Part shown: one piece after another, positions 3,370 to 10,940 of the stretch
Position numbering within the stretch: position 1 is the first letter of the stretch
How the letters are laid out: each line of letters starts with the position of its first letter
Origin: an uncultured Verrucomicrobiales bacterium
Lineage (GTDB): Bacteria > Verrucomicrobiota > Verrucomicrobiia > Verrucomicrobiales > Akkermansiaceae
Direction: 5' to 3'
Assembly (NCBI GenBank): GCA_937951675.1
Contig: CALFBI010000007.1
Location: 62,001-126,000, forward strand
DNA length: 64,000 nucleotides
Notes under the pieces: generated by a model
What the model was told of the DNA's origin: nothing
The model's database searches: none
The model's input: only the letters and a program-made list of their open reading frames with translations
Position numbers and translations under genes: made by a program

Positions 3370-4419
3370 CTAAGGGTCGGGGAAAAGTTCAGACTGTGAG
3401 ATTGCCTCCGGATCAGCCAAACGAAAACCCACCCCTAGTAAACGCACTGCTTTTTTTTCTCCTCGCTCCCAGGCTTCACGAAGTAATGACTCGACCAACT
3501 CAGGGCTGGGATGTGCCGTCACTCGCTCGATCGAGGTTCTGCCGAAGTCATGGAATTTGAGTTTCACTACCAGACTTCGCACCTGTCGATCCGAATACCG
3601 CCGTTCAAAAACATCACGCACGGCCTCAAGAAGTTGGCACGCTGTTGGAGTCAACATTTCAAAAGTCGACACATCTTCCATAAAAGTGCGCTCTTTACTG
3701 ATTGATTTCCGCGTCCGCTGAACCTCAACGGGACGATGATCGATCCCTCGGCAACGATCATATAATTCTACTCCCCATTTACCAAAACGCTCCGCAAGAA
3801 CGAATTTCGAAACCTCTTGCATCTGGCCACAAGTTTCAATTCCGATTGCTTCAAGTGAAGCCTGCATTTTTCGCCCGACTCCCGAGAGTTTCGCTACCGG
3901 CAAATCTAACATAAAATGGTTCACCTCATTCTCCGAAAGGCTAAACTGACCATTCGGCTTTTCCCAATCACTACAAATCTTAGCGAGAAGCTTATTAGGA
4001 GCAATTCCTGCGGAAGCGGTAATCTTAACTTCCTCCGCAATCTGAGCCCGGATTTCACGAGCGAGAGTAGCGCCGTCTGTTTGCCAATGCGAAAGGTCTA
4101 AATACGCTTCATCTAATGAAAGGGGTTCAATCTGATCTGTAAACCTCTGAAAGATCGATCGCACTTTCAGAGAAATCTCTTTATATCTTTCGAAGCGAGG
4201 GGGCACTATAATGAGATGAGGGCAACATTCTTTTGCTTTAAATCCTGGCATCGCAGAATGGCACCCATATTGACGAGCTTCATAGTTGGCAGTCGTCAAA
4301 ACTCCCCGCCTTCCTTCTCCTCCGACCGCTAAAGGCTTCCCCCGATACTCAGGGTGATCGAGTTCCTCGACTGCTGCATAAAAGCAATCCATATCGAGGT
4401 GCACAATCATTCGGCTCAT
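3370..4419 (-). CDS. dinB: DNA polymerase IV
   Basis: A Y-family translesion DNA polymerase of about 349 residues. The N-terminus carries the metal-binding segment IVHLDMDCFYAAVEE and the second catalytic acidic pair in SLDEAYLDLS near residue 100. The little-finger domain follows, and the tail ends in the DinB-like LLGVGFRLADPE segment. I place the start at the ATG at 4419 because it gives MSRMIVHLDMD and its ATGA overlaps the stop of the upstream histidine kinase (4416-4418). A further-upstream ATG at 4449 would add ten residues that lie inside the kinase gene. The overlap suggests translational coupling to the two-component system. Confidence 0.95.
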   Translation of the reverse strand: MSRMIVHLDMDCFYAAVEELDHPEYRGKPLAVGGEGRRGVLTTANYEARQYGCHSAMPGFKAKECCPHLIIVPPRFERYKEISLKVRSIFQRFTDQIEPLSLDEAYLDLSHWQTDGATLAREIRAQIAEEVKITASAGIAPNKLLAKICSDWEKPNGQFSLSENEVNHFMLDLPVAKLSGVGRKMQASLEAIGIETCGQMQEVSKFVLAERFGKWGVELYDRCRGIDHRPVEVQRTRKSISKERTFMEDVSTFEMLTPTACQLLEAVRDVFERRYSDRQVRSLVVKLKFHDFGRTSIERVTAHPSPELVESLLREAWERGEKKAVRLLGVGFRLADPEAISQSELFPDP

Positions 4420-6062
4420 CGCTCCAGGGGGATCCTTAATTGGAAACAAGACCCTTTCCCCGCCACCGAAAGAATCACTAAGTCACCTCCTAAAGCACGT
4501 GCCAAGCGACGACTCAAAGACAGCCCCAAACCTACGCCTGGCTGAGTATATGAAGCTTCTTGAGCGGATTTGTGAAAGGCTCGAAAAAGTTTTTTTTGCT
4601 CGCGAGGGTTCACTCCAGGGCCATGATCACGCAATTCAAAATAATAATATCTCGGCCCCTTTTTCCCAGTTAAAAGGAAACGTGCCCCTTCCCCTTTTCT
4701 GACTCCATATTTACAAGCATTATCAACCAGGTTGAAAAGAATTTGCTCACATGCAGTTTGATCTGTGAGAATAAAAGTCGACTCTTCTTGTAACGAGATG
4801 TCGACTCGAGCCCCTACTTCCCCTGCCCGGTCTTGAAAGCGAGGCTCCATACCTCCTATGAGATCACCCACACCTTGTTTCTCCCACTTTGCAGAAGCAT
4901 TGCCACGCTCTACGCGCGAATACGAGAGGACATTCTCAACGAGATGATTTAAGCGCTCTGACTCTCTGCGAAGAGTCCCTAGATAAGACTGTTTCTTCGC
5001 CTCATCTTTAATCATTCCTGATTCTAGTAATTCTGAATACAGGCGAAACGTCGTTAAGGGAGTGCGAAGCTCATGCGTCACGGACGAAACAAACGTTGCT
5101 CGCCGTTCGCTCAAGACCATCACTCCACGCAATAAAAAACCGGAAGCTAAAACACCTAACACGACGACAAGCCACGCCCCTCCTAAAGGGCCGCGCAAGG
5201 GAGCCCAGCTCCATCGTAATTCTTCATACCCTCCTTCATTTGAAATGAGCTTCAAAGGAAGTGAAACAAGGGCATCGGGATCGAGTGCCGCAGCAGAAGG
5301 GTCCACCTTTAATAGATCCGCCTGTGGTAAAAGATCTGCGATTCTTTCTAACATTTCGCCCTTCAACTTCTCGAAAGCAACTCCTTCCACAAGAACGAGA
5401 GATTTGTCCTCTTTCTTTGCAAATGACAAATCTGAGTCCTCCTGTAAGTCTAATGATTCCTCGGAAAGTCCCGTCGACGACGAATGAGAAAAACTCTTCT
5501 CATTACCTTCTGATCCTTTCTGACGCTTGGAAAACTTTTCCGTTCGCCCCTTGTTCTTGAGGTAAGGTTTCTTTCTCGACTTCTTATTTAAGCGTTCATT
5601 TACGATCTGAGAACGTTCTGCTTTCTCGATCGTATTTCGCGCCTGCTGATACTGGCCGCTTTTAGAAATACTCAGTTTCTTTTGTAAGTTCTGGGGCTCA
5701 ACTTGATTTTTCGTATCAATCACTGACCCTTTGAGAGCCTCTGCCTGTTGAGCTAACTCCTCGGTTTGAATTGTCTCAGCGAGTGGAATTTGACGTTCCT
5801 CCAACAAGGAGGAATCCGCTTGAAGATCCTGCGCGCCCCCTTCTGACTCCTGATCAAGAACGTAATTTGATGCAATCCCCTCCAACCTCCAGAGAGAAAG
5901 CCGCATGCGCGTTTCTAAATCAACCTGTGCGTCCACTTGCCACTTCTTTACTTCTAACTGCACTACTCGAAACGTCACTGCTGAAGCGGCCAGAATGATC
6001 AAGCTCCCGATGAGCGCGAACGCGACCCATGTTCCATACTGACGTTGTAATATTTGCCTCAT
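4416..6062 (-). CDS. Sensor histidine kinase with long charged extracytoplasmic region
   Basis: A 548-residue membrane sensor kinase. One membrane helix lies at about residues 12-34 and a second at about 288-310, enclosing some 250 residues that are very rich in Lys, Arg, Glu, Ser and Gln and look partly disordered. The phosphoacceptor helix SVTHELRTPLTTFRLYSELL places the conserved His near residue 333. The ATPase domain follows with the N box NLVDNACKYG, the G1 box DHGPGV and the G2 box GVGLGLSLSRRL. It overlaps the response regulator upstream by ATGA (6059-6062) and dinB downstream by ATGA. The signal sensed is unknown. Confidence 0.93.
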   Translation of the reverse strand: MRQILQRQYGTWVAFALIGSLIILAASAVTFRVVQLEVKKWQVDAQVDLETRMRLSLWRLEGIASNYVLDQESEGGAQDLQADSSLLEERQIPLAETIQTEELAQQAEALKGSVIDTKNQVEPQNLQKKLSISKSGQYQQARNTIEKAERSQIVNERLNKKSRKKPYLKNKGRTEKFSKRQKGSEGNEKSFSHSSSTGLSEESLDLQEDSDLSFAKKEDKSLVLVEGVAFEKLKGEMLERIADLLPQADLLKVDPSAAALDPDALVSLPLKLISNEGGYEELRWSWAPLRGPLGGAWLVVVLGVLASGFLLRGVMVLSERRATFVSSVTHELRTPLTTFRLYSELLESGMIKDEAKKQSYLGTLRRESERLNHLVENVLSYSRVERGNASAKWEKQGVGDLIGGMEPRFQDRAGEVGARVDISLQEESTFILTDQTACEQILFNLVDNACKYGVRKGEGARFLLTGKKGPRYYYFELRDHGPGVNPREQKKLFRAFHKSAQEASYTQPGVGLGLSLSRRLARALGGDLVILSVAGKGSCFQLRIPLER

Positions 6063-6748
6063 CTGACTCCCCCCAATCGGTAACCTTTCCCTCTCACTGT
6101 CACAATCGAGTCCGCATCACGGAGTTTCTGTCGAAGGCGTGCCACATGCATATCAATCGTTCGCGTCGCGAGCCCCTTAGGATCTAAACCCCATACTTGT
6201 CGGAGAAGTTCCTCTCTCGAAATAGGTCTCGGCTTTTGGTTTTCAAAATAACGCAGGAGTTTCACCTCCGTCTCTGACAGTTCTTCGACTTCCCCATTCG
6301 CAAATAAAACCTGCTGCTTCACGAGATCGACCTCGACTTCCCCAAACGGAATCATCTCCACCACCGCCGCTCGCTCGGTGCTGCGCCGTAATACCGCGTC
6401 CACTCTCGCCAGAAGCTCTCTCAGACTAAAAGGCTTCACCACATAATCATCTGCCCCGAGAGAAAGCCCTTTCACCCGGTCATTCTCCTCCCCCCGAGCG
6501 GAAAGAATAATAGTAGCCTGACCGGGGCGGCTTTCTTGCAAGGCCTTTAAAATCTCAAACCCGGTATGATGTGGCATAATCAAATCGAGAAGCATTAGCT
6601 GATAACTCGCGTGTAAGGCCAATTGCATGCCTTCTGCCCCATCTGAAGCCGAGATGACCTCGTATCCAACTGCGACAAGGGTATCGACGATTCCTTCGCG
6701 GATCGCGTCATCATCTTCAACAACAAGAATGGTCGGTCTTTCTGACAT
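6059..6748 (-). CDS. OmpR/PhoB-family response regulator
   Basis: A response regulator of about 229 residues. The receiver domain has the acidic cluster VEDDD near residues 8-12, the phosphoacceptor Asp in LLDLIMPHHTG near residue 53, and the conserved Lys in VVKPFSLREL near residue 102. The C-terminal winged helix is of the OmpR type (TIDMHVARLRQKL, then VTVRGKGYRLG). The start is the ATG at 6748. A TTG two codons upstream at 6754 is less likely. It is the first gene of the regulator-kinase-dinB unit and is divergent from the Lon-domain gene. Confidence 0.94.
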   Translation of the reverse strand: MSERPTILVVEDDDAIREGIVDTLVAVGYEVISASDGAEGMQLALHASYQLMLLDLIMPHHTGFEILKALQESRPGQATIILSARGEENDRVKGLSLGADDYVVKPFSLRELLARVDAVLRRSTERAAVVEMIPFGEVEVDLVKQQVLFANGEVEELSETEVKLLRYFENQKPRPISREELLRQVWGLDPKGLATRTIDMHVARLRQKLRDADSIVTVRGKGYRLGGVR

Positions 6749-6831
6749 TATCAAATGCTAGCTTATCAGTGCGGCCTCAAATGTAACGAGAAGGTCACAA
6801 AGGCAAAAGCGGTAAATTTAAAGACCTCCCC

Positions 6832-6868: not shown

Positions 6869-7483
6869 TTGGCTCAACTCACCATTCCTCAGAAATGCGG
6901 CGTTATCATCCTTCCCGATGGTGCCCTCTTCCCGCATGGGACTCTGCCTCTTCATCTTTTTGAGCCTCGATACCGTGAGATGGCTCAAGAGGCGCTGCGA
7001 GGAGACTGTATGTTTTGCGTCGGTAATCAGATTCATTGTGAGGAAAAAGAACAAGACGGCGTTGCCCCCGTCGGAACGATTGGCCTAATCCGTTCTGCGC
7101 GAGAACTTCCCGATGGCCGGCTTTACCTTCTACTTCACGGAATCGTGCGCGTCCGGTTCCAAGACTGGATCCCGAACAAAAAGCCTTACCCTTATGCCGT
7201 CATCGAGCCTGAAATCACACAGGTTCCTCCCCATTTAGATGAATTAGGACTCCGCACTCTCCTCGATAAAGCGGTCTTAGAAGTTTTAAAATACACCGCT
7301 CGAGATGTTCAGGAAGAAATCAGCCACGTCCTCTCCCACATCGACGAACTTGAAGTTCGCGCTGATTTAATCGCGCAACAGTTCGTAAACGACCCTGAAT
7401 CTCGGCAGGAGCTCATCGAAGAAACCGATTTATCGAAACGCCTGCTTTCCCTATCTTCCATCCTGAAGAATATTCTCGGATAA
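6869..7483 (+). CDS. LON peptidase substrate-binding-domain protein
   Basis: A stand-alone Lon N-terminal (substrate-binding) domain without the AAA+ or protease parts. The diagnostic stretch VIILPDGALFPHGTLPLHLF followed by EPRYREM matches the conserved start of the domain, and the GTIGLIRSARELPDGRLYLL segment matches its core. I prefer the TTG at 6869, which gives about 204 residues with the usual short lead before the IPLFPL-like strand. The ATG at 6755 adds 38 residues that look unlike the family and would leave no room for a promoter between it and the divergent regulator. Such proteins may bind misfolded clients or act in proteostasis, but the function is not established. Confidence 0.8.
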   Translation: MAQLTIPQKCGVIILPDGALFPHGTLPLHLFEPRYREMAQEALRGDCMFCVGNQIHCEEKEQDGVAPVGTIGLIRSARELPDGRLYLLLHGIVRVRFQDWIPNKKPYPYAVIEPEITQVPPHLDELGLRTLLDKAVLEVLKYTARDVQEEISHVLSHIDELEVRADLIAQQFVNDPESRQELIEETDLSKRLLSLSSILKNILG

Positions 7484-7600
7484 CATTCATTCACCAGAAA
7501 AGCGCATTGTCTGACTACTCGTTTCTATTGCGGATACCAAGCCCCTTATGATCGATCATTCCGCCAAAATAATGCCGTAAAGCCGACAAAGCAGCAAAGT

Positions 7601-7618
7601 TTGTGAAAAATTTCACAA
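7601..7618. promoter_or_regulatory. Rex-type operator upstream of nuoDEF
   Basis: TTGTGAAAAATTTCACAA is a perfect match to the 18-base consensus TTGTGAA-N4-TTCACAA of the NADH-sensing repressor Rex. The palindrome extends further as AGTTTGTGAAA..TTTCACAAACT. It ends six bases before the likely -35 element of nuoD. Rex homologues release DNA when NADH is high, so the site predicts derepression of these complex I genes under high NADH/NAD+. No rex gene is in this window. Confidence 0.8.
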
Positions 7619-7623
7619 ACTCC

Positions 7624-7654
7624 TTGCGACATGAGGCTCTATTGAGGATATGAT
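7624..7654 (+). promoter_or_regulatory. Candidate nuoD promoter
   Basis: TTGCGA at 7624-7629 and TATGAT at 7649-7654, with a somewhat long 19-base spacer, lie between the Rex-type palindrome and the nuoD ATG at 7678. A start site near 7661 would leave a leader of about 17 bases. This is a motif match only. Confidence 0.45.
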
Positions 7655-7677: not shown

Positions 7678-8931
7678 ATGAGTAAGACCACCTATGAAGC
7701 TCCTGATGCAGCTGCGAAATCGGCGCAAGCCGTCGCTGATTATCAGGCCCAGACTGAGGACTTGCTTGGCGAGAAAATGACCCTGAATATGGGACCTTCT
7801 CACCCTGCGACTCACGGCGTCTTGCGACTCATTCTTGAGCTCGATGGCGAAATCATCACGAAAGCCGACCCTGACGTTGGTTTCCTTCACCGTGGAGATG
7901 AGAAAATCGCTGAGAACATGCATTACAATCAGTTCATTCCTTATACTGATCGTCTTGATTACCTCGCCCCTCTTGCCAACAATGTCGCCTATGCCTGTGC
8001 TGTTGAGAAATTAATGGGATGGGAGCTCCCGCCTCGCGGCCAAGCAATTCGAGTGCTTTCTTGTGAACTTGCACGTATTTCAGCGCACCTTCTCGGCATT
8101 GGTGTTTTCGGGATGGACGTTGGAGCCATGACCGTTTTCCTCTATACTTTCACTGAACGTGAAAAGATTTATAACCTGAGCGAGCAGCTCACCGGAGCGC
8201 GTTTTACGACTTCCTACACTCGCGTAGGTGGCCAGATCCGCGATCTTCCAGAAGGCTTCCTTGCTGAAGTCGCTAACTTCTTAGACGAATGTGAAGTAAC
8301 CATTGATGAAGTGGATAAGCTTCTCACGAAGAGCCAGATCTTCCTTAATCGAACCAAAGACCTTGGCATCATCACGAAGGAAGACGCGATCAGCTACGGG
8401 ATCACGGGACCAAATCTCCGTGCCGCGGGTGTTCCTCGCGATCTACGGAAGGATAGCCCGTATCTTGGTTACGAGAATTACGACTTTGACGTTCCCATCG
8501 GCGAACATGGCGATTGTTATGATCGCTACCTCATGCGGATGGAAGAGATGAGGCAATCAATCCGCATTGTTCGCCAAGTGATCGAGACCATTCCTAATGG
8601 TCCTGTGAATGTCACGGATGCCAAAGGGCTTCTCCCTAAGAAGCAAGATGTGTTAATGAAGATGGAAGAACTCATTCATCACTTCATCGTCGCGACGCAA
8701 GGGCTCGAAGCTCCAGAAGGAGAAGTTTATTTTGGTCATGAAAACCCTAAGGGAGAGCTTGGGTTCTATATTAATTCTAAAGGGGGCGGGGCTCCCCACC
8801 GTCTCAAAATCCGCAGCCCGTCTTTCATCAACCTCTCTATTTTACCTAAATTACTGAAAGGCTGCATGGTTTCTGATGTCCCTGCGATCCTCGGTTCTCT
8901 TGATTTCGTCATGGGCGAATGCGACCGTTAA
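7678..8931 (+). CDS. nuoD: NADH-quinone oxidoreductase subunit D
   Basis: The 49-kDa-type subunit of respiratory complex I, part of the quinone-binding connecting module facing the cytoplasm. At 417 residues it has the usual length. Conserved segments include MGPSHPATHGVLRL, FLHRGDEKIAENM, DRLDYLAPLANN and RVLSCELARISAHLLG, and the C-terminus ends LDFVMGECDR, close to the canonical GEIDR/GEVDR end. The first 33 residues before MTLNMGPSH are a poorly conserved leader. It is the first gene of nuoDEF and lies downstream of a Rex-type operator. nuoC, its usual upstream neighbour, is not here. Confidence 0.97.
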   Translation: MSKTTYEAPDAAAKSAQAVADYQAQTEDLLGEKMTLNMGPSHPATHGVLRLILELDGEIITKADPDVGFLHRGDEKIAENMHYNQFIPYTDRLDYLAPLANNVAYACAVEKLMGWELPPRGQAIRVLSCELARISAHLLGIGVFGMDVGAMTVFLYTFTEREKIYNLSEQLTGARFTTSYTRVGGQIRDLPEGFLAEVANFLDECEVTIDEVDKLLTKSQIFLNRTKDLGIITKEDAISYGITGPNLRAAGVPRDLRKDSPYLGYENYDFDVPIGEHGDCYDRYLMRMEEMRQSIRIVRQVIETIPNGPVNVTDAKGLLPKKQDVLMKMEELIHHFIVATQGLEAPEGEVYFGHENPKGELGFYINSKGGGAPHRLKIRSPSFINLSILPKLLKGCMVSDVPAILGSLDFVMGECDR

Positions 8932-8958: not shown

Positions 8959-9540
8959 ATGTCCAACGATATCCTTGAACACAACGTTGCCTTGGAGGCG
9001 ACCCCAGGAAACCAGTTCTTTGAACCTTTCCATGTCACTCCTGAGCTCGAAGCAGAAGCGAACGAACGCATCTCTCATTATCCAGCAGATCAAAAACGTT
9101 CTGCCGTTTTAATGCTTCTCCATGCCGTGCAGCATCAGTTCGGTTACATTTCAGCCGAAGCTCTCGAGTGGGTTGCTGGGAAACTTGAAATCGAGCCGAT
9201 TAAAGTGCTCGAGGTCGTTTCTTTCTACCCAGGATTCCGCCAATCAGCGCCTGGTAAATTTCACATCCGAGTCTGCCGCACTCTTTCTTGCGCAATGGCA
9301 GGAAGTGGAGAACTCATGGAAAAGCTTTGTGAGCTCACTGGCATTGATCGCTCTAAGTCTGACCCTCACCATCATCCTGTTGCCGTTTCTCCCTGTGGGA
9401 AATGGTCTCTTGAATTTGCGGAATGCCTCGCCTCTTGTGGCACGGCTCCTGTCTGCCTTGTGAATGACGACTTCCATGAAGGCGTGGCTCCTGAGAAAGC
9501 GCAGGACCTCCTCACCAAATACGATTCATCCGAACAATAA
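8959..9540 (+). CDS. nuoE: NADH-quinone oxidoreductase subunit E
   Basis: The 24-kDa-type subunit of the NADH dehydrogenase module, carrying one [2Fe-2S] cluster. In 193 residues the four ligands appear as C-x4-C in CRTLSC and C-x3-C in CLASC, in a thioredoxin-like fold. The segment AVQHQFGYISAEALEWVA is typical of the N-terminal helical part. It starts 27 bases after nuoD and ends eight bases before nuoF, consistent with one operon. Confidence 0.96.
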   Translation: MSNDILEHNVALEATPGNQFFEPFHVTPELEAEANERISHYPADQKRSAVLMLLHAVQHQFGYISAEALEWVAGKLEIEPIKVLEVVSFYPGFRQSAPGKFHIRVCRTLSCAMAGSGELMEKLCELTGIDRSKSDPHHHPVAVSPCGKWSLEFAECLASCGTAPVCLVNDDFHEGVAPEKAQDLLTKYDSSEQ

Positions 9541-9548
9541 TCACTCCG

Positions 9549-10940
9549 ATGTCAGTCACTTATAAAGCTGGAAAAGAGCCCCACGAGAAGGAATATCGAC
9601 TCATTTTCAAAAACGTCGACCGGGAAGGTTGGGACACAAGTCTCGATACTTACGAAAATGAGGGCGGTTATGAGATGCTCAACAAAGCTCTCAAGATGGA
9701 AACTCAGTCCATCACCAATGAAGTCAAAGCTTCTGGCCTTCGTGGTCGTGGTGGAGCCGGATTTCCTACCGGCGTGAAATGGGGGTTTATCCCACCCAAT
9801 AACACGAAGCCTGTTTACCTCATCTGTAACTGTGATGAATCAGAACCGGGCACTTTTAAAGATCGCTATATCGTTCACCAAGACCCTCATCAGTTGATCG
9901 AAGGAATGGTGATCTCCTGCTTTGCGGTCGGAGCACACACTGCTTACATTTACATCCGCGAAGAATTTCCAGAAGCGGCAACCATTGTTGAAAAAGCCAT
10001 CGCCGAAGCTCGTGCTAAAAATTACGTTGGAAAGGACGTCCTTGGATCTGGTTTCGACTGTGAAATTTACGTCCATCGCGGAGCAGGTGCTTACATCTGT
10101 GGAGAAGAAACTGGCCTAATTGAGTCTCTCGAAGGCAAACGCCCTTACCCCCGCATTAAGCCCCCTTACTTCCCTGCAGCAATGGGGCTCTACCTTGCTC
10201 CTACCATCGTTAACAACGTCGAGTCTCTCTGCCATGTGGTTCACATTCTCAGAATGGGTGGTGAGGAATATGCGAAGCTCGGAGTGGCCCGTAATACCGG
10301 AACACGAATTCTCTGTGTCTCTGGGGACGTGAAAAAGCCCGGCTACTTTGAAGTGGAAGTTGGGAAGGTCACCTTCCGCGAACTTCTCTTCGACATGTGT
10401 GGAGGACCGAAAGAGGGCCGTGAATTCAAAGCCGTTATCCCAGGCGGCTCTTCTTCAAAAATCCTCCGTTGTGACGAGTCATTCAAAATCCGGCAAGGAG
10501 ACTCTGAGGTCAACCTTGACTTCATGGACCTCCCTCTCGATTTTGATACTCTTGCTGCGGCAGGCTCCATGGCTGGTTCTGGCGGAGTCATCGTCCTTGA
10601 TGATTCACGTAAAATGTCTTGGGTTTTAAACAATATTAACCATTTCTACGCTCATGAATCGTGCGGGCAGTGCACTCCTTGCCGAGAAGGTTCGACTTGG
10701 ATGCGTAAGCTCTCGGACCGGATCGTGGAAGGGAAAGCATCCCCTACCGATATCGACACTCTAGAGTCAGTTGCCTACCAAATTGACGGGAAAACAGTCT
10801 GTGCTTTCGGGGAGGCTTCTTCCTGGCCTGTGGAAGCGATCGTTGCTAAGTTCAAAGATGAACTCGTCTCCGAAACTTCTACCAATAATGATGATGCGAT
10901 CCTCACTCCGGAAGAGGCCTCTGCAACAAAATACCTTTAA
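9549..10940 (+). CDS. nuoF: NADH-quinone oxidoreductase subunit F
   Basis: The 51-kDa-type subunit that binds NADH, FMN and one [4Fe-4S] cluster. In 463 residues it shows the nucleotide-binding segment GLRGRGGAGFPTGVKW, the FMN-site region GAGAYICGEETGLIESLEG, the long PPYFPAAMGLYLAPTIVNNV segment, and cluster ligands in ESCGQCTPCREG with the distal Cys in KTVCAFGE. It closes the operon: a strong terminator follows at 11001-11030. nuoG does not follow, so the rest of complex I must be encoded elsewhere. Confidence 0.97.
   Translation: MSVTYKAGKEPHEKEYRLIFKNVDREGWDTSLDTYENEGGYEMLNKALKMETQSITNEVKASGLRGRGGAGFPTGVKWGFIPPNNTKPVYLICNCDESEPGTFKDRYIVHQDPHQLIEGMVISCFAVGAHTAYIYIREEFPEAATIVEKAIAEARAKNYVGKDVLGSGFDCEIYVHRGAGAYICGEETGLIESLEGKRPYPRIKPPYFPAAMGLYLAPTIVNNVESLCHVVHILRMGGEEYAKLGVARNTGTRILCVSGDVKKPGYFEVEVGKVTFRELLFDMCGGPKEGREFKAVIPGGSSSKILRCDESFKIRQGDSEVNLDFMDLPLDFDTLAAAGSMAGSGGVIVLDDSRKMSWVLNNINHFYAHESCGQCTPCREGSTWMRKLSDRIVEGKASPTDIDTLESVAYQIDGKTVCAFGEASSWPVEAIVAKFKDELVSETSTNNDDAILTPEEASATKYL

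Follow-up and report, generated by a model that had tools for sequence, protein, structure and literature searches.

A predicted Rex operator before nuoDEF and four identical sites before other oxidative-phosphorylation operons of an uncultured Verrucomicrobiales bacterium

An exact inverted repeat in front of three complex I genes raises the question of which regulator reads it and how much of respiration that regulator would govern. The repeat lies in the window (the whole stretch of DNA that was analysed, 64,000 nucleotides in length), upstream of a plus-strand operon composed of nuoD (7678–8931, complex I 49 kDa subunit, Pfam PF00346), nuoE (8959–9540, thioredoxin-like [2Fe-2S] subunit, PF01257) and nuoF (9549–10940, FMN/NADH-binding 51 kDa subunit, PF01512 and PF10589). 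An earlier note, made from the letters of the window, described this as an exact Rex operator before an isolated nuoDEF operon. Both parts of that description hold: TTGTGAAAAATTTCACAA at 7601–7618 fits the published Rex consensus TTGTGAANNNNTTCACAA (PMC6391272; PMC5355995) exactly, and nuoBC and nuoGHIJKLMN are located on other contigs. A longer palindrome of 24 bp, AGTTTGTGAAA-AA-TTTCACAAACT (7598–7621), with 11-bp arms and a 2-bp centre, surrounds the predicted operator. The operator is found 59 bp upstream of nuoD and is followed after 5 bp by a -35-like hexamer, TTGCGA (7624–7629, plus strand), a distance close to the six bases claimed before. The probable -10 element (7647–7654, plus strand) would be either GATATG at 17-bp spacing or TATGAT (7649–7654) at 19-bp spacing, both weak matches. 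Within three mismatches the window holds this site only, its two strands giving the two hits listed, while the shuffled-sequence control produced 0.18 hits on average. The gene preceding nuoD is a LON-domain-like gene on the same strand that ends at 7483. Adjoining it, a minus-strand pair (4416–6754) reads by eye as a histidine kinase and a response regulator.

The genome under study (G000; 2.05 Mb in 28 contigs, 96.8% complete) contains exactly five perfect TTGTGA-N6-TCACAA sites and none of the reversed control pattern in a genome-wide pattern search; each of the five has TTGTGAAAAATTTCACAA as the sequence of one strand. The stricter pattern TTGTGAAANNTTTCACAA gave five exact hits and 28 with three mismatches but none with one or two, against 14 hits in all for the control. 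Each perfect site precedes an oxidative-phosphorylation operon, namely nuoDEF (C7), nuoBC (C4), nuoGHIJKLMN (C24), the alternative complex III operon (C5) and atpB with the downstream ATP synthase genes (C17), where the first genes were assigned by Pfam and the others were named by eye from their translations. The genes downstream are other than the cydAB, ldh or adh targets suggested by the earlier note, and none of the five sites precedes rex. Downstream of the complex III genes on C5, and in the same orientation, come genes reading by eye as cbb3-type and aa3-type oxidase subunits, a reading supported by the NCBIfam cox-I match of a homologous gene in a relative, and no further perfect site was found between the complex III and oxidase genes. 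The genes for alternative complex III and for the two oxidase types form one same-strand block with a single operator ahead of it (C5 of this genome; loci L030 and L245). No nuoA was seen beside nuoB or in the nuoG-N run (loci L029 and L032, on C4 and C24). We located the two one-mismatch sites that have the best-looking cores: the first falls within a helicase gene, and the second is intergenic between genes reading as rplI and dnaB. Neither was counted as a regulon member.

The palindrome in front of nuoD is well conserved among relatives. The nearest named nuoD records belong to Akkermansiaceae and Roseibacillus, which places the window in Verrucomicrobiales or close beside it. In a set of 80 loci from named genomes (nuoD 76–83% identical) we searched 450 bp upstream of the conserved nuoD motif GPxHPxTHG. 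A perfect site was present in 58 of these loci and in none of the control stretches further upstream, and the flanking bases vary while the operator sequence does not. Most whole-genome relatives also carry a perfect palindrome before nuoD; the objection that it might not be conserved there, raised in advance by the earlier note, is thereby answered. Some rex-carrying relatives (G010 and G022) lack a site immediately upstream of nuoD. These data also bear on the reading of the palindrome as an RNA hairpin or terminator of the LON-domain gene, or as a chance repeat. The 11-bp arms are able to fold and the upstream gene ends on the same strand, but the palindrome lacks a following T run, the same letters turn up ahead of unrelated transcription units, here as well as in other genomes, the site is kept where its flanks diverge, and sites track rex over 190 genomes (see below), so we give this reading next to no credence.

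A regulator of the expected type is encoded in the genome. The rex gene (C6:103168-103782), whose absence would have spoken against a Rex operator, encodes a protein with a winged-helix DNA-binding domain (PF06971) and an NAD(H)-binding Rossmann domain (PF02629) with a GVGNLG motif, and scores 228.3 bits against the NCBIfam equivalog NF003993 (cut-off 217). The closest solved structure by sequence is that of Thermotoga maritima Rex (E 8e-38). Its DNA-binding domain aligns with ours without gaps, so that the T. maritima residue numbers carry over, and ten of its 12 DNA-contact residues are kept (Arg12, Ser33, Lys43, Gln46, Arg48, Lys49, Gly58, Arg60, Gly61 and Tyr64). The two changes, Glu34 to Thr and Ser52 to Ala, affect residues that are named among the DNA-contact residues of lower conservation (PMC8836258). 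The base-reading residues Arg48, Lys49, Arg60 and Gly61, which are all intact, are common to this protein and T. maritima Rex (structures 5ZZ5 and 7WB3; PMC8836258).

We found that the sites occur together with rex across the order. In a sample of 190 genomes, rex was scored as a match to PF06971, which was present in 150 genomes and missing from 40. All 150 genomes with the domain have at least two perfect sites, with a mean of 6.1. Among genomes at least 90% complete, those with two or more versus fewer than two sites number 122 and 0 when rex is present and 4 and 28 when it is not, i.e., 28 of 32 rex-less genomes have one site at most (Fisher's exact p = 8e-27, uncorrected for ancestry; the species are not independent, as most rex-less genomes belong to one genus, g3). 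Placement suggests that this genus is Akkermansia. Other rex-less genomes with fewer than two sites are found in genera g14 (G013, G159) and g13 (G190), where sister species have both rex and sites, and, in a smaller sample, in g5 (G004, G016). These natural losses of rex offer ready-made comparisons. Before nuoD, the rex-less G013 carries CTGTGAAAATTTTCACAA and G190 carries CTGTGAAAAGTTGCACAA, which we read as probable operators decayed after rex loss; loci L170 and L192 of the 80-locus set match these two in both sequence and coordinates. Three genomes (G080, G145 and G150; 90–95% complete) have 4–8 sites and no rex found, which probably reflects assembly gaps. In the rex-less genus g3, the core TTGTGACACGTGTCACAA and other cores were treated as having no relation to the Rex operator.

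The TGTGA-N6-TCACA motif is also the core of the Escherichia coli CRP site, with equal spacing. The palindrome could accordingly be a CRP/FNR-type site, the more so as its centre is placed about 50 bp ahead of the inferred start, and a site upstream of the -35 would suit an activator. Yet searches of the genome, which is 96.8% complete, detected neither the CRP-type helix-turn-helix (PF13545) nor the cNMP-binding domain (PF00027), while both searches match in control genomes; within that completeness, the main rival reader of the motif is thus removed. The sites also track the presence of rex and keep the outer TT..AA, so a CRP/FNR-type site appears very improbable.

Taken as a Rex operator, the palindrome very probably belongs to a five-site regulon controlling oxidative phosphorylation as a whole. 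Characterized Rex proteins bind and repress without NADH and are released by it (PMC8836258; PMC5355995), and we infer binding, repression and release here from them. Rex without NADH, whether carrying NAD+ or free, would occupy the operator beside the -35 and hinder RNA polymerase, so that respiration genes would be repressed at a low NADH/NAD+ ratio. When NADH builds up, e.g., when respiration falls short, it would bind Rex and take it off the DNA, and complex I, alternative complex III with the oxidases, and ATP synthase would be transcribed together. All these complexes would then be set jointly by a single regulator acting through five identical operators. The earlier proposal of an NADH/NAD+ switch on the NADH-input module is thus supported as regards the Rex operator, but the predicted control is not limited to that module, since it takes in all three nuo operons, alternative complex III with the oxidases, and ATP synthase.

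Systems of this kind are already known, and the additions made here are a new lineage, a near-invariant operator and a predicted regulon spanning the respiratory chain and ATP synthase. The closest counterpart is the Rex regulon of Streptomyces avermitilis, which shares the consensus TTGTGAANNNNTTCACAA and in which Rex directly represses nuoA1-N1, atpIBEFHAGDC and ndh2, with NADH reducing binding (PMC5355995). However, the S. avermitilis sites are degenerate (1–3 mismatches; PMC5355995), whereas all five sites described here are perfect. That regulon also comprises cydA1B1CD, rex-hemAC1DB, hppA and wblE (PMC5355995), while our genome has one site before the alternative complex III and oxidase genes and none before rex. 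In Staphylococcus aureus, the Rex site TTGTGAAW4TTCACAA is nearly identical, but the S. aureus sites lie upstream of anaerobically induced genes (PMC2883068), in contrast to the aerobic respiratory chain and ATP synthase genes that follow the sites found here.

The promoter geometry is regular at nuoD. A TTG starts 5 or 7 bp past the operator in 58 of 58 perfect-site loci, the best -10-like hexamer mostly follows at 16–18 bp spacing, and the nuoB, nuoG and atpB loci show by eye a similar layout. As the -10 matches are weak, this promoter layout is a proposal. At these four of the five promoters (nuoB, nuoD, nuoG and atpB), the operator is positioned upstream of the -35 and not across it, which makes the means of repression less certain there. 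Activators commonly bind just upstream of the -35. It could be argued from this, and from the position of the TTG, that Rex binds but activates where its operator occupies that place. We find this quite unlikely, because activation at low NADH would run contrary to metabolic logic, characterized Rex proteins act as repressors, also on nuo and atp in S. avermitilis (PMC5355995), and the alternative complex III gene seems to have a repressor layout. There, the operator stands only 20–43 bp from the start codon and offers its own TTGTGA, followed by a weak -10-like hexamer at 15–17 bp, so that operator and promoter seem to overlap. Repression by Rex remains our reading for all five operons, with the difference that the nuoA1 and atpI operators of S. 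avermitilis cover the -35 (PMC5355995), while four of ours are just upstream of it. A more elaborate scheme, which we consider speculative and rather improbable, would make Rex a global throttle with two modes: tuning or activation from upstream of the -35, in alpha-CTD territory, at nuo and atp, and a hard block at alternative complex III, where the operator supplies the -35. Loss of Rex, probably in Akkermansia and in a few other lineages, would then free respiration from NADH control.

As judged from the sites and their neighbors, a Rex regulon covering respiration looks likely to extend to most of the order Verrucomicrobiales. Nearly all sites read in relatives precede nuoB, nuoD, nuoE, nuoF, nuoG, nuoH, actA, atpB, NDH-2, polyprenyl diphosphate synthase or ctaD. 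The complex III target is its cytochrome gene, and the further targets are NDH-2-like genes, the polyprenyl diphosphate synthase (quinone tail) gene and the gene for cytochrome oxidase subunit I. One site with a mixed core, at L124, falls within an open frame, lacks any neighboring respiratory gene and looks like a chance match, and the site at L138 is cut by the contig end. Tandem operators 23–25 bp apart precede alternative complex III at L117 (G015) and L131 (G023), and site pairs at similar spacing are seen in G007 and G019. Three genomes (G046, G054 and G047) have 12–13 perfect sites each, only part of those of G047 having been read; larger regulons may exist in these genomes.

In the literature collection searched, we found no paper on Rex control in Verrucomicrobia, and the predicted regulon would give the phylum a concrete redox regulon. 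Across the phylum, the stricter pattern was detected in 17 of 289 sampled genomes, 15 of which belong to this order. A genome from the same class but outside the order (G422) has four sites: one upstream of atpB, one between nuoD-like and NDH-2-like genes, one upstream of a polyprenyl synthase gene, and one 25 bp before a gene that reads by eye as a radical-SAM enzyme of the menaquinone (futalosine) pathway. In a genome from another class (G345), the single perfect site (L267) is located at a rex-like gene, which suggests autoregulation in that genome.
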